The position numbers and the translations under genes were made by a program. This document shows, piece by piece, positions 2,233 through 16,812 of a stretch of DNA of 64,000 nt. A model generated the notes under the pieces. That model was not told the origin of the DNA. It did no database searches and saw only the letters and a program-made list of their open reading frames with translations. Each line of letters begins with the position of its first letter. Position 1 is the stretch's first letter. The stretch is from NCBI GenBank assembly GCA_003054495.1, contig CP028514.1, forward strand, positions 2,124,001 through 2,188,000, in the 5' to 3' direction. The stretch is from Carboxydocella thermautotrophica. GTDB taxonomy: Bacteria; Bacillota; GCA-003054495; Carboxydocellales; Carboxydocellaceae.

Positions 2233-3966
2233 TTGCTGCAATCCAACCGTTCCATCAAAATACTGGCATTGCTTTATTTTATAATTGGTATTATTTTTCT
2301 GACCCAGCATCTGTCCTTCTGGTACCAGCCCCTGAGCAACGAATTGCTCCTATTATTCCTGGCTGCAGGAATTACCACTTATTTATCAGCCCTTAATCTG
2401 GGGGTAACATTCAACCTGGTGAGCGGTCTGGATTTTATCTGTTTTTACTTTTTCGGTCCGGCAGCCCTGGTCTGGCTGGGAACAGCAGAAGTTGTTATTG
2501 ACAATATCAGCCGCAGGGATGGCTGGGTCAAACTGTTGTTCAATCTGGGACAGACGGCAATCTTCCTGACCCTGACAACTACCATCCTGCAAACCCTGAA
2601 TCAACCTTTCCTATTACCGATATTCATTAACTTTCTATTCTTTTATTTAATCTCTACTGTATTAAATGGACTGCTTTACCTGCCATTGCTTTTACTAAGC
2701 GGGCAATATTATTCTTCCTTGCTCGGGAATATTAGCTCAACTTTGTTATTTTCCTTACCCTTTTATTATCTGATTTTTGCTGCCTATCAGGCCGGTCCTA
2801 CGGAAACCCTGATCCTGGTACCTGCTTTCCTTTATCTGATCAAAAAACTGTTACAACCCACTTTGCCTACAACTCAGCCTGAAGTTCTGGATAATAATGT
2901 ACTCCTTTATTCACGAAAACACTTATTCTATACTCTGGCCCAATTAGCCCAGAAGAAGCAGTCTTCCCACTGGATTACCCTGCTGGAATTGCCGGACTAC
3001 AGGGATATTGAAGAAATCCACGGCAGTCTAGCCGCTGAAGATGGATTGCGCCAGTTTGTCCGCTCCCTGTATAAGTCCAATACCAGAATAACTGTCTACC
3101 GCTATACCAGCAATCAGCTGGCTATTTTGAGTATGGACCAAATAAAACAACCAGCTGCTGAGCCTCCTTGTCTGGTAGCCACGTTAGCTTTCACTCCCGC
3201 TTTGATTTCAGTAGAGGAAATTCTGGATCAGCTGGAACAAAAGCTGGGGGAGTTGCGTCAGGAATATCAGCAGGAAAAAGAAAAACAATTGCAACAGTCC
3301 ATTCGCCTGGCCACTATTGGCCAGCTGGCCGCCGGTATTGCCCATGAAATCCGTAATCCTCTGACCACTGTCAGCGGCTTTTTGCAGTTACTGGAATGGG
3401 GCAGGGAATTACCTGTTGATACGATTAAGATGATGGAGGAAGAACTAGACCGCGTTAACCAGCTGGTTACAGGGTTACTTTATTTATCCAATCCATCCCT
3501 GGAACATAAACAAAGGGAAAAGCTGAATTTGAATGAGCTAGTGACCTCAACAGTAGAACTGGTTAAGCCGGAACTTTTACTGCGGGAAATCGAATTGAAA
3601 ATAGAACTGGATCCCGGTCTGCCTGAGCTTTATCTAAATGCTGCCCAAATTCGGCAGCTGCTTATCAATTTGCTGCAAAATAGCTACCTGGCTGTGGAAA
3701 GTAAAGGCTGGATTAAAGTGAAAACCGGTCAGGACCAGGCCCATGTTTTTCTGACCGTACAGGATAGCGGACCTGGCATTGAGCCTGATAAGCGGGAGCT
3801 GGTTTTCCAGCCATTCTTTACAACCAGGCCCAATGCGATTGGACTGGGCCTGACTATTTGCCAGCAAATTGCCGCCAATCATAATGGTCAACTGGAACTG
3901 GCATCTGAAAGTGACTATACTACATTTATCCTTAAGTTGCCACTGTTTTTAAACATTGTTAGCTAG
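2233..3966 (+). CDS. Membrane sensor histidine kinase (orphan)
   Basis: The N-terminal 220 residues are very hydrophobic with about seven to eight membrane segments. A linker of about 120 residues follows, then a HisKA domain with the phospho-acceptor in AGIAHEIRNPL (3343-3345) and a HATPase_c domain with N box NLLQNSYLAVE, DSGPGI and GLGLTI. No response regulator is adjacent, as for sporulation-type orphan kinases that feed Spo0F or Spo0A (inference). The long frame opens at an ATG at 2212 that lacks a ribosome site. TTG at 2233 has AGGAG 10 bases upstream and makes the N-terminus line up with the next kinase, so I prefer it. The membrane domain resembles those of the kinase at 3983 and the HD-GYP protein at 14660. 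Confidence 0.88.
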   Translation: MLQSNRSIKILALLYFIIGIIFLTQHLSFWYQPLSNELLLLFLAAGITTYLSALNLGVTFNLVSGLDFICFYFFGPAALVWLGTAEVVIDNISRRDGWVKLLFNLGQTAIFLTLTTTILQTLNQPFLLPIFINFLFFYLISTVLNGLLYLPLLLLSGQYYSSLLGNISSTLLFSLPFYYLIFAAYQAGPTETLILVPAFLYLIKKLLQPTLPTTQPEVLDNNVLLYSRKHLFYTLAQLAQKKQSSHWITLLELPDYRDIEEIHGSLAAEDGLRQFVRSLYKSNTRITVYRYTSNQLAILSMDQIKQPAAEPPCLVATLAFTPALISVEEILDQLEQKLGELRQEYQQEKEKQLQQSIRLATIGQLAAGIAHEIRNPLTTVSGFLQLLEWGRELPVDTIKMMEEELDRVNQLVTGLLYLSNPSLEHKQREKLNLNELVTSTVELVKPELLLREIELKIELDPGLPELYLNAAQIRQLLINLLQNSYLAVESKGWIKVKTGQDQAHVFLTVQDSGPGIEPDKRELVFQPFFTTRPNAIGLGLTICQQIAANHNGQLELASESDYTTFILKLPLFLNIVS

Positions 3967-13291: not shown

Positions 13292-13834
13292 TCAGCTGCT
13301 TTTTTTCCGGCCACTGCCCACCATTCCTTCAGCAATAATCCAGAAAAGACCTACCGCCAGCAAGACATCACCAATGCTGAAAACTTCATTCAATCCGGGA
13401 ATATAAAAAATGTCTCCCAGAAAAGGCAGGGCATCATCTACCTGCAACAGACGGTGGGTACCATCTTCATAGAGGGCCAGCCTCTCCTTGACATGGGCCG
13501 GTAAAAAGCGGCCACTGACCGGCATATAACCACCATTAAACAGAATCACCAGGAAGTTAAGAAACAAGCCCAGTCCCAGTATTCTGACCCCAATCAAATG
13601 CCGGTTAAGATAGAGCCAGTAGAAAAGAAAAAAATAACTGACCACATGGACCCAGCCCCCCCAGAGAATAACAGGATAAAATCGGGCCCGGGCCAGAATA
13701 TCCAGCAGAAATTGCAGGGCGAAGGCAATCACCACCAGCATCAATCCCCGTAATTCCAGTTCACCCAGTCTGGCCAGGCTGCCCCGGCGCAGCCAGCCAA
13801 AAATCAAGGCAGCCACCAGTGCCATCCAGAACAC
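13292..13834 (-). CDS. DUF5317 family membrane protein
   Basis: Small integral membrane protein of about 180 residues with five or so hydrophobic segments. It carries the family's conserved stretch NGGYMPVSG and a late PGLNEVFSIGDVLLAVGLF. Function is unknown. I chose the GTG at 13834, 7 bases after GGAGGGAGG; the open frame continues to 13855 but would overlap the HD gene. It follows the HD-domain gene by two bases, so the pair is cotranscribed. Confidence 0.8.
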   Translation of the reverse strand: MFWMALVAALIFGWLRRGSLARLGELELRGLMLVVIAFALQFLLDILARARFYPVILWGGWVHVVSYFFLFYWLYLNRHLIGVRILGLGLFLNFLVILFNGGYMPVSGRFLPAHVKERLALYEDGTHRLLQVDDALPFLGDIFYIPGLNEVFSIGDVLLAVGLFWIIAEGMVGSGRKKSS

Positions 13835-13836
13835 TT

Positions 13837-14577
13837 TTATTCCTCCCTCCACCACCCGGAAATAATCAGGTCCACCAGTTTGGGGTCAATCAGCTTGCCT
13901 TTCTCCGAGGCGAGGATTTGTTTAATTTCCTCTCTGTTTTTACCCTGAACTAACAATGTATCAACAAAATCAGCTACATGCAAGATGCGTGCAGCTAATT
14001 CAATTTTCTCTCCCTGTAAACTAAAGTAACAGTTAGCCCCATCATAGCGCAGATGGTGCATCCCTACCCAGCGGCTGACATCAACCAGAAAAGGAATGCG
14101 CTCCAGTATGCGCTGGCCAGCCAGCGCATGCGCATCCTGATCCAGCTCATCGCCTCTTAGAACCAGTTTACCGATATCGTGGTAGAGAGCAGCCCTCCGT
14201 AGCTTTTTGCGCTCCGGTTCTGTCATTCCCTTTTGTAAAGCCAGCCAGTCCGCCAGTTGGGCGACCCGCTGGTTATGGCCTTCCTTGCCGTCTACTGTGC
14301 GCTCGGTTATAGATGCCAGTACTTCCAGGGTCTGCAGCAACTGAACTTTCATGCGCCGGTAGCTGTAATAGGCATAGCCAGCCAGTGCGAGAGGAATTAG
14401 ATAAAAACTAAGAAGCATCATCCCTTGTGTTATGCTGGTTTGCCATTTAACTGAGAGTAGAGCAATTGCAAGAAAACTGAATGATATTAAAAGCAAAGTT
14501 TCTCTATTTTTCGACAACAGATACCATAGAAAAAAGCCCTTCCCGTTGGCTTGGGACGGCTTTCTGCCTGATTGCAT
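13837..14577 (-). CDS. HD-domain membrane protein (reduced HD-GYP relative)
   Basis: Two N-terminal membrane segments (about residues 27-45 and 53-72) are followed by an HD phosphohydrolase domain: EGHNQRVAQLADWLA, the metal-binding YHDIGKLVL, then MHHLRYDG where full HD-GYP proteins have HHE...GYP, and ILHVADFVDTL. The GYP signature is absent and the domain is short, so activity on cyclic-di-GMP is doubtful. The start is uncertain: ATG 14577 has AAGGAG 11 bases upstream, but codons 5-15 overlap a strong terminator-like hairpin (14534-14562). A TTG at about 14517 (LSKNRETLLL) would start just after it. Confidence 0.7.
   Translation of the reverse strand: MQSGRKPSQANGKGFFLWYLLSKNRETLLLISFSFLAIALLSVKWQTSITQGMMLLSFYLIPLALAGYAYYSYRRMKVQLLQTLEVLASITERTVDGKEGHNQRVAQLADWLALQKGMTEPERKKLRRAALYHDIGKLVLRGDELDQDAHALAGQRILERIPFLVDVSRWVGMHHLRYDGANCYFSLQGEKIELAARILHVADFVDTLLVQGKNREEIKQILASEKGKLIDPKLVDLIISGWWREE
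14534..14562 (-). terminator. Terminator-like hairpin inside the 5' end of the HD gene
   Basis: On the minus strand AAGCCgTCCC and GGGAaGGGCTT form a nine-pair stem with one mismatch and an 8-base loop, followed directly by TTTTTT. It lies 100 bases after the HD-GYP stop, so it may end that transcript. It also lies within the first 15 codons of the annotated HD gene, so it may act as an attenuator. Confidence 0.65.
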
Positions 14578-14659: not shown

Positions 14660-15970
14660 CTATTCTTCCGCTTGTGCTGCTGCTATTTCACCCCTGGCTG
14701 CACCGGTTTCTATTTCCGTTAGTATTTGTTTTTCCCACTTCGGGGCTAACCGCTTTTCCCAGGCCTGCACAAATGCCTGAACCACCTGGCTGTCCAGTTC
14801 AGCACCACCGCATTTTTGCAGTTCCTGAATGGCCTCCCGGGGAGACCGTCCAGCCCGATAGACCCGGTTAGAAGTCATGGCATCAAAGCAATCTGCCACT
14901 GCAATGATTCTGGCACCCATGGGAATTTCCTCACCTTTTAGTCCATCAGGATAGCCGGAGCCATCCATGCGTTCATGGTGGTGGCGGACCATAAGATAAG
15001 CATCTCCCAGATTTTTGACCTGTTTGATAATCTCTGCCCATACTACGGCGTGGTCCTTGATGCGATTATATTCCTGGGGGCTAAGACGGGTGCTTTTGTT
15101 AAGGATAACATCAGGAATGGCAATTTTGCCAATATCATGGAGCAAAGCCATATAGCGCAAAGTCTCAATTTTATGTTCCGGCCAATCCAGTTCCCGGGCG
15201 GTTTCCACTGCAAATTCAGCTACTCGCTCGGAATGTCCTTTGGTATAGAGATCCTTGGCCTCAATAGCGGTAACCAGGGCCTGGACTGTGTCCAGGTACA
15301 TTTGCCGGGTGTCCATGTAGAGTTTGAAGGAATGACGGGCCAGCATGAGGGGCAGGATGAAAAGAATTATCCCCACTGCCCCCCATGTTTCATAGATCTT
15401 GGCCATTAATATCCCCATAGGTGTAAGGGCTATAAAATTAGGTGCCACCCATTTAAAATTCAACATCCATATACCATATGGTTTCGCATTTTGGCTTAAT
15501 GCTAAAACTATCGTAACCAGCGATAAATTGATAATAACATGACAAAAAGCAGCAATTATTGTCGCATATACTGCACCAAGCTTAATTAATCCAATTTTAA
15601 TAATGCCTGAGAATGTTATTGAAATTATTAATTGACTAAAGTTAAAAAAAGTCTTAATTATTTTTTTGTTCTTTGATTTGAGGTGAATCAAGCATTCGCC
15701 TATAAAAACGGTAAAAATAGCAACGGGTAAATCAAATAAATATAAAATAGCAACAGTAAGAGCTATACTTACAGATACACTGCCACCTCTAGGCAAATGT
15801 ACCGGAAACAACTCAATTATGAAATAAATCAGAGAAAAAATAATAGTATTAATTATTGTTTTCTGGCTGAAATTGATGCTATTAAGTGTATATAAAAGAA
15901 TGACACCCGTTACTATACTCAAAATTACCACATACCAGTTTAAAAGCTTCGCTTTTATAGGCTCTTGCAT
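14660..15970 (-). CDS. HD-GYP domain membrane protein, putative cyclic-di-GMP phosphodiesterase
   Basis: About seven membrane segments occupy residues 10-220, with ELFPVHLPRGGSVSVS and FFNFSQLIIS, similar to the sensor domains of the two kinases at 2-5 kb. A full HD-GYP domain follows: TKGHSERVAEFA, LLHDIGKIAIPD, HHHERMDGSGYPDGLKGEEIP, RIIAVADCFDAMTSNRVYR. All expected metal ligands and the GYP motif are present. The start at 15970 has GAGGTG 5 bases upstream. The 5' third is AT-rich (12 G/C of 60 from 15601), unlike the HD-GYP part (33 of 60 from 14941). A 24-codon peptide gene precedes it by 27 bases. Confidence 0.88.
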   Translation of the reverse strand: MQEPIKAKLLNWYVVILSIVTGVILLYTLNSINFSQKTIINTIIFSLIYFIIELFPVHLPRGGSVSVSIALTVAILYLFDLPVAIFTVFIGECLIHLKSKNKKIIKTFFNFSQLIISITFSGIIKIGLIKLGAVYATIIAAFCHVIINLSLVTIVLALSQNAKPYGIWMLNFKWVAPNFIALTPMGILMAKIYETWGAVGIILFILPLMLARHSFKLYMDTRQMYLDTVQALVTAIEAKDLYTKGHSERVAEFAVETARELDWPEHKIETLRYMALLHDIGKIAIPDVILNKSTRLSPQEYNRIKDHAVVWAEIIKQVKNLGDAYLMVRHHHERMDGSGYPDGLKGEEIPMGARIIAVADCFDAMTSNRVYRAGRSPREAIQELQKCGGAELDSQVVQAFVQAWEKRLAPKWEKQILTEIETGAARGEIAAAQAEE

Positions 15971-15997: not shown

Positions 15998-16072
15998 TTA
16001 CCATCTCGCGTTTGCCCCACCTACCAGTACAACAGCGATCAGAGCCAATACAACTTTCAGTACTTTTTGCAT
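15998..16072 (-). CDS. 24-residue hydrophobic peptide, possible leader or signal peptide
   Basis: ATG 16072 follows a strong AGGAGGTG site by 7 bases. The peptide has lysines at positions 3 and 6 (MQKVLK), a hydrophobic core of Val, Leu, Ala and Ile, and ends in VGGANARW before TAA. This is the shape of a signal peptide with an A-N-A cleavage site, or of a single-span membrane peptide. It lies 27 bases upstream of the HD-GYP membrane sensor and was too short for ordinary gene calling. It could be a leader peptide, a peptide ligand for the sensor domain, or a membrane partner. Only the translation signals and the shape are seen; the function is open. Confidence 0.6.
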   Translation of the reverse strand: MQKVLKVVLALIAVVLVGGANARW

Positions 16073-16132
16073 CGCGGTACACCTCCTTCTGTTTTTTTAT
16101 TTCAGGTGACCGCTCCTCTCACTCTCATTTAT

Positions 16133-16162
16133 GCCATGTCTCCCATCAAGGAGACGAATGGC
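16133..16162 (-). terminator. Hairpin after the unknown gene at 16168
   Basis: GCCAT GTCTCC at 16133-16143 pairs with GGAGAC (16150-16155) and ATGGC (16158-16162), with a two-base bulge and a six-base loop. There is no good U-run, so this is a weak terminator or a structured spacer. Confidence 0.45.
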
Positions 16163-16167
16163 CCTGT

Positions 16168-16812
16168 TTAGGGTTTAACCAGCAATGACAGACGCCGGTT
16201 TACGGCATTGAGGGTAGCCTTTACCACAGTCTCCCACTCATCAACCCGGACGTAGGCGGAACCAATCAAGGCCTCTTCCTCTTCCGGGGTAACCAGGGTC
16301 ACAGCTACCACTGCGGCTTGCTTGCGTCCCAGATGAATGATGGCTACATCATCCACCGCGAAGGTGCAATTGCCGCGCAGATAGCGCTCCAGCGCATCCA
16401 GAGTGGCCTGAGCCACCAGGCGCAGTTTATTGTTATAGGCTCCCGGGCCCTGGGCTCGACCAAACATGGTATCATCACCGAGCTGAAGTTCCACTTCCGC
16501 CTTGGCTTGTACCCCTTCAGTAAACAGCTCAGCCCGTATCAGTTTGGGGCGAACCTCGGTGACGGGAATCTCTTCTTCATTAGCCATTTGAGCTACGGAA
16601 ATTTTCTTGTGGTCCAGGGCCACGCCAAACTGGGCCATCACCGCCGATTCTATATCCCGCACCAGTTGTTTGGGGCTGCGGTTTTGCTTGGCCAGAACAT
16701 GGACTTCCTGAACTTCACCGTATTCATTGGAAACTATTTTAGCAGAAACTACATCCTTTATCTGGCGAATAATAGCTTCAAATTCTCTGATCATTTCCGG
16801 AGTTACACCCAT
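16168..16812 (-). CDS. Conserved-looking hypothetical protein, 214 residues
   Basis: No family recognised. The protein is soluble, acidic and looks like two alpha/beta repeats. The N-terminal 90 residues (EFEAIIRQIKDVVSAKIV, EVHVLAKQNRSPKQLVRDIES) resemble a ferredoxin-like strand-helix pattern. The C-terminal half (RLVAQATLDALERYL, VDDVAIIHLGRKQAAVVAVTLV, VKATLNAVNRRLSLL) looks like a second alpha/beta unit. No signal peptide or membrane segment is seen. The start is ATG 16812. It lies between hpf and the HD-GYP peptide gene on the same strand, each separated by a hairpin. Confidence 0.7.
   Translation of the reverse strand: MGVTPEMIREFEAIIRQIKDVVSAKIVSNEYGEVQEVHVLAKQNRSPKQLVRDIESAVMAQFGVALDHKKISVAQMANEEEIPVTEVRPKLIRAELFTEGVQAKAEVELQLGDDTMFGRAQGPGAYNNKLRLVAQATLDALERYLRGNCTFAVDDVAIIHLGRKQAAVVAVTLVTPEEEEALIGSAYVRVDEWETVVKATLNAVNRRLSLLVKP

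Follow-up and report, generated by a model that had tools for sequence, protein, structure and literature searches.

Does the short open reading frame that lies directly before a c-di-GMP phosphodiesterase gene of Carboxydocella thermautotrophica specify a product and, if so, does that product belong with the membrane sensor of the adjoining enzyme? The window, that is, the whole stretch of 64,000 nt that was analyzed (forward positions 2,124,001–2,188,000 of contig CP028514.1, assembly GCA_003054495.1), comes from a genome of 2.74 Mb, G000 in our sets. The features concerned, in window coordinates, are:

15998–16072, minus strand: membrane micropeptide gene of 24 codons (helix, GGA, tail NARW), from sequence, conservation and selection
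16080–16087, minus strand: Shine-Dalgarno sequence AGGAGGTG of the peptide gene
14660–15970, minus strand: MASE9-type HD-GYP c-di-GMP phosphodiesterase, 436 aa (HD_5, E 1.4e-40)
15335–15970, minus strand: membrane sensor domain of this enzyme, residues 1–212, with an ECF S-component fold in the predicted models
15773–15802, minus strand: sensor hairpin VHLPRGGSVS, residues 57–66, conserved, predicted to be the strand on which the peptide tail docks
16073–16167, minus strand: leader separating the peptide from the upstream gene, Shine-Dalgarno predicted to be paired, relatives mostly with a different hairpin
16168–16812, minus strand: upstream gene, conserved, for a protein of 214 aa that matches no family above cut-off; immediately 5′ of the peptide in most loci

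A sequence-only reading had proposed that 15998–16072 is an overlooked gene for a 24-residue peptide with a strong ribosome-binding site, a GGANARW end and a 27 nt gap before the HD-GYP gene, and each of these details is indeed seen in the sequence. The frame begins with ATG, specifies MQKVLKVVLALIAVVLVGGANARW and ends with TAA; the Shine-Dalgarno sequence lies 7 nt 5′ of the ATG, and 27 nt separate the stop from the HD-GYP ATG at 15970. A strong Shine-Dalgarno sequence precedes most of the relatives' peptides too, the starts having been chosen by a script that favors it.

By its domain matches the downstream protein is an HD-GYP c-di-GMP phosphodiesterase with a MASE9 sensor. The catalytic residues (H, HD and HHE) are invariant in alignment A3, and the HD-GYP part has structural matches to HD-GYP entries of the PDB. 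While the window protein matches MASE9 [PF20972] at E 0.0017 and 20.1 bits, under the cut-off of 24.3, 19 of 20 sensor domains of the family match it at E ≤ 0.01 (best 7.2e-14). The seven membrane segments previously ascribed to the protein agree with the models by our own helix count. To our knowledge the MASE9 domain has no known ligand. MASE1 is listed among sensor domains without discernible physiological purpose in a passage of PMC8846402.

A search with the window HD-GYP protein against 61 genomes (its own and 60 relatives) gave loci from many families. At 21 of 23 loci, the window's own counted, a peptide of the same plan lies 5′ of the HD-GYP gene; the two exceptions are one locus cut at a contig end (L018) and one with a degenerate ORF (L014). 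A 24th locus, with a partial match only (L030), is without the peptide. Used alone, the 24-residue query matched, in many of these and at E from 4.7e-4 upward, sites just 5′ of the same HD-GYP gene. A peptide profile built from 22 sequences (A1; consensus MxxxxKxLxALxxLVLAGGAxxxW) gave 92 matches in 398 genomes of the phylum at E ≤ 4.6e-4, a cut-off chosen by us. A MASE9-like sensor profile (A2) was searched in the same 398 genomes and, among the matches listed, 86 of the 92 peptides have an A2 match 37–281 nt 3′ of them, on their own strand. Four of the other six are at contig ends (G282, G026, G107, G096), one precedes a divergent HD-GYP (G182, locus L110), and one lies inside a 406-aa frame and is probably a chance match (G344). 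Since the 22 training sequences are all within the 92, and 21 of them had been picked beside HD-GYP genes, a fair tally is 65 of 70, obtained by leaving them out and adding L110. The search for similar short ORFs before HD-GYP genes, which had been suggested as a check, thereby uncovered a peptide conserved over many families of one phylum; the lack of conservation that would have counted against the proposal was not encountered. A chance ORF at 15998–16072 is ruled out by this conservation, and the 24-codon ORF is confirmed as a real gene that had been overlooked.

Between peptide stop and HD-GYP start there are 21–203 nt (91 loci, median 54); L135 was left out of this list. L117 was dropped, no start having been accepted for it. 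L119 was removed from the peptide set because another frame had been taken there, its actual candidate being MRNRLLIIALALLSLAMLGATWTWEI. Examined from the side of the sensor, 13 of the best 97 A2 matches are without a peptide-profile match. Contig edges account for three of these (G020, G283, G355). Two others are second paralogues that lack a peptide (G005, G154), while the remaining eight carry a short ORF at that position (G019, G288, G233, G190, G135, G263, G207, G304), several of these with the helix shortened or lost. Degenerate peptides of this kind, some of which retain the tail pattern, were observed at L115, L117, L118, L205, L120 and L121.

Among 30 loci from named genomes, a set which overlaps the former since several records appear to be identical contigs, a clear peptide was present in 20 and a weaker one in two; at L225 and L234 it was recognized by eye. 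Three loci begin at a contig edge (L218, L231, L235), and three gave no convincing peptide (L223, L228, L229). Named carriers include Desulfosporosinus sp. FKB, Candidatus Formimonas warabiya, Thermosediminibacter litoriperuensis, Fervidicola ferrireducens and Thermovorax subterraneus. L225, from a Candidatus Eisenbacteria MAG, has at 3658–3738 a peptide-like ORF MPKLIYTIIAALLSYITVSGGQSNWW, ending in SNWW, 5′ of a MASE9-like sensor gene.

Divergent MASE9-like proteins had the peptide at none of 20 loci, and 18 of these 20 show, in our reading, a GAF-like stretch after the sensor. The GAF-type proteins at L236–L254 also have a shorter hairpin. In tandem arrangements the second HD-GYP gene likewise has no separate peptide between it and the first.

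When the 22 peptide members were scanned against Pfam and NCBIfam none rose above cut-off, the best E values being 0.022 and 0.037, respectively, from one member each. NprX, LptM, DUF7554 and other assignments were rejected as single weak matches. A literature search, confined mostly to open-access papers with subscription journals largely outside it, found no paper on a partner peptide of a MASE9 HD-GYP. The peptides make up a conserved protein family of about 24–30 residues, apparently unnamed.

Selection on the peptide was examined in sister pairs picked by hand (19 chosen, of which one was skipped because its handle had no peptide, leaving 18). Up to the GGA these pairs differ by 40 synonymous and 12 non-synonymous changes (pN/pS 0.12), and in the three residues after it by 10.5 and 27.5 (pN/pS 0.52); body and tail differ with a Fisher p of 2e-6. 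For the whole peptide the median pN/pS is 0.55 in 406 close, non-independent pairs (those of 4186 with pS 0.05–0.6). Selection at the level of amino acids, with the helix strongly constrained, suggests that the ORF is translated, and so far as sequence can tell it looks so. In each of the five columns of LAGGA one residue is shared by 76–86 of the 92 peptides, which by this count is more than a mere signal peptide would need. The residues after GGA often comprise an aromatic, then a basic or polar residue, and then W in 58 of 89; this tail is, to judge from the substitutions, evolving fast, within limits.

The near-exclusive adjacency, the purifying selection and the absence from divergent MASE9-like proteins together strongly support, at the level of genes, the view that the peptide belongs with the adjoining HD-GYP sensor, of which it is very probably a functional partner. 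The pair is itself part of a conserved block, in which upstream gene, peptide and HD-GYP gene follow each other at 84 of the 90 loci with at least 400 nt upstream, so that the counts overstate what can be concluded from adjacency by itself; at the six loci without an adjoining upstream gene, peptide and HD-GYP gene are still adjacent. In the window the HD-GYP gene is followed by one for a smaller membrane HD-domain protein (13837–14577), which overlaps that of a DUF5317 protein (13292–13855). With five neighbors tested, DUF5317 occurs at 74 of the 92 loci and SecA near 32; homologues of HPF or SecA are near some peptide loci.

Could the peptide touch the sensor? For AlphaFold2 the window peptide and the enzyme, which are in frame, were joined by translating through the stop, a modeling device that is not meant to suggest read-through. 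Model 1 (69 rows, 24 with the peptide) has a pLDDT of 89.7, with the peptide at about 65–71, and shows a helix at peptide residues 2–17 and a strand at 21–23. The same helix and strand appear in model 2, which comes from a different family (41% identity), has a linker of 20 residues and reaches a pLDDT of 86.3. In both models the hairpin strands 57–58 and 64–66 are the only other strands of the membrane domain, and from these DSSP assignments we infer that the tail pairs with the conserved LPRGGxVSV hairpin. Direct docking of the peptide on the sensor is the best reading of predictions in which the peptide has modest pLDDT and an artificial read-through tether was needed. Mutual information (87 loci, Neff 64) places tail columns at the top of the list, with partners which do not form one surface and which we place partly on the inner side; averaged over the hairpin, the signal of the tail is close to zero (0.08). 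The earlier suggestion is borne out in part: adjacency and selection strongly support a gene that belongs with the HD-GYP sensor, whereas for a peptide that the sensor senses, or with which it assembles, the support is prediction, from the two tethered models.

The fold of the sensor was compared using Foldseek and VIA-align, by which helical bundles can score about 13–14 from their arrangement alone. Model 1 superimposed on NikM [4m5b] with a Z of 16.9 and rmsd of 2.8 over 192 residues (model 22–234 on chain 1–214), on CbiM [5x3x] with a Z of 13.2, and on the S-components RibU and BioY with 12.8 and 12.4; model 2 gave 14.9 for NikM and 12.2 for CbiM. These models give the MASE9 sensor domain a predicted ECF-transporter S-component fold, nearest to NikM/CbiM. 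At the sequence level hhalign of the sensor with CbiM [PF01891] gave a probability of 3.8% (E 0.011), too low to establish homology, and ECF-ribofla_trS was touched by one of 20 family sensor domains (E 0.0098). In both models peptide residue 22 aligns with residue 1 of NikM and CbiM, at the ends of the aligned ranges (for CbiM in model 1, residue 22 on chain residue 1). The first residues of NikM enter its metal site. A passage of PMC5037267 calls the extra N-terminal helix of NikM crucial to metal coordination, and one of PMC7689651 has a loop of the small protein CbiN lying on the metal pocket of CbiM. The likeness to NikM and to CbiM with CbiN would consist in the sensor fold and in a small membrane partner with an outer segment at the pocket. 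Unlike CbiM, the window HD-GYP lacks the conserved HI start; unlike CbiN, the peptide has one helix, not two; and unlike ECF S-components the domain is fused to HD-GYP, its output being that enzyme. The comparison suggests that a transporter's substrate-binding fold may have been turned into an input for a c-di-GMP sensor. In Pfam the sensor belongs with MASE9 [PF20972], whereas a matching peptide family is absent from Pfam and NCBIfam.

Small proteins that regulate membrane sensors include MgrB with PhoQ and Prli42 with RsbR. A further case is DbfQ with DbfRS [PMC12714742]. Like the present peptide, each is a small protein made for a single sensor or encoded close to it. The known ones act on kinases or stressosomes; in the present case a c-di-GMP phosphodiesterase would take that place, and its gene directly adjoins that of the peptide in nearly all genomes.

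The peptide is likely to be an obligate microprotein subunit or a tethered ligand of the sensor. Its helix would insert in the membrane with the basic N-terminus inside, in our positive-inside reading, and the short tail after GGA would reach the outer face. There the tail would join the LPRGGxVSV hairpin as a beta strand over the pocket of the S-component-like domain, in the place held in NikM and CbiM by their own N-terminus. As an integral plug or a tethered ligand it might set the cytoplasmic phosphodiesterase activity, or make this activity dependent on a small ligand. We give roughly even weight to the full reading, namely a translated membrane microprotein that is the dedicated partner of the sensor and whose tail, as plug or tethered ligand, sets the activity. 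The more general proposal that MASE9-type phosphodiesterases are two-chain receptors, in which the variable tail of a dedicated micropeptide closes the pocket of the S-component-fold sensor or serves to read it, and which in most lineages have an operon-specific structured leader RNA, is tentative and we lean slightly against it. The MASE9 domain at least gains a concrete candidate partner and a predicted docking site; we know of no tethered-ligand design in c-di-GMP signaling.

The peptide might instead be the precursor of a pheromone, a signal-peptide-like pre-peptide cut after GGA to free a tail (e.g. NARW) that binds the sensor of the same or another cell. Nearly all peptides carry small residues at −3 and −1, the N-terminus is basic, and the tail changes fast and was modeled as a strand with the hairpin, all of which such a precursor would share. 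Its helix residues, however, are themselves conserved across families beyond hydrophobicity, the tail is mostly just 4–5 residues long, and none of the five neighbors tested is a constant processing or export gene, even SecA being near only the minority of loci counted above; we consider a pheromone unlikely. It is more doubtful still that an independent membrane peptide, serving for example the ribosome, secretion or division, merely travels in the HD-GYP gene block. The three-gene block and the occasional HPF and SecA homologues would fit such a passenger, but the pair persists where the upstream gene is not adjoining, and no solitary strong match was found except at cut contigs and in the one chance match.

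A regulatory leader ORF, whose translation controls that of HD-GYP by coupling and whose product is inert, has in its favor the short median gap, the structured leader that precedes the ORF in most lineages, and a window Shine-Dalgarno sequence within a predicted stem. Against it are the selection on amino acids, a gap that varies nearly tenfold among the loci, and the lack of a single-amino-acid run signaling attenuation; this explanation seems to us improbable, if not quite to the degree of the passenger. The microprotein partner remains our preferred reading.

In the window, 16040–16167 folds better than its shuffles (z −4.07), with AGGAGGTG paired to CACCT. Most lineages have a leader with GAGCGRAGCGG and a hairpin with a UAGCGG loop about 40 nt 5′ of the peptide start, as at L130:2192–2268 and L193:2672–2748; this hairpin has no match in G000, where the leader differs. 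In an alignment of 37 leaders (A9) 89.4% of cells pair and covariation is 0.617 against 0.279 when shuffled (0 of 500 shuffles), counts which favor the element because the 37 were chosen out of 72 for a candidate hairpin. All 14 hairpin matches at E ≤ 1.3e-4 in the 61 genomes fall at a peptide leader, nine of them being training sequences; the next (E 8.7e-4) lies elsewhere. A known riboswitch was rejected for the leader, since Rfam gave no match to the window, nor to the leaders of 12 loci. Near one peptide locus, on the other strand, there is a c-di-GMP-I riboswitch (L160:4330–4416, 90 bits).
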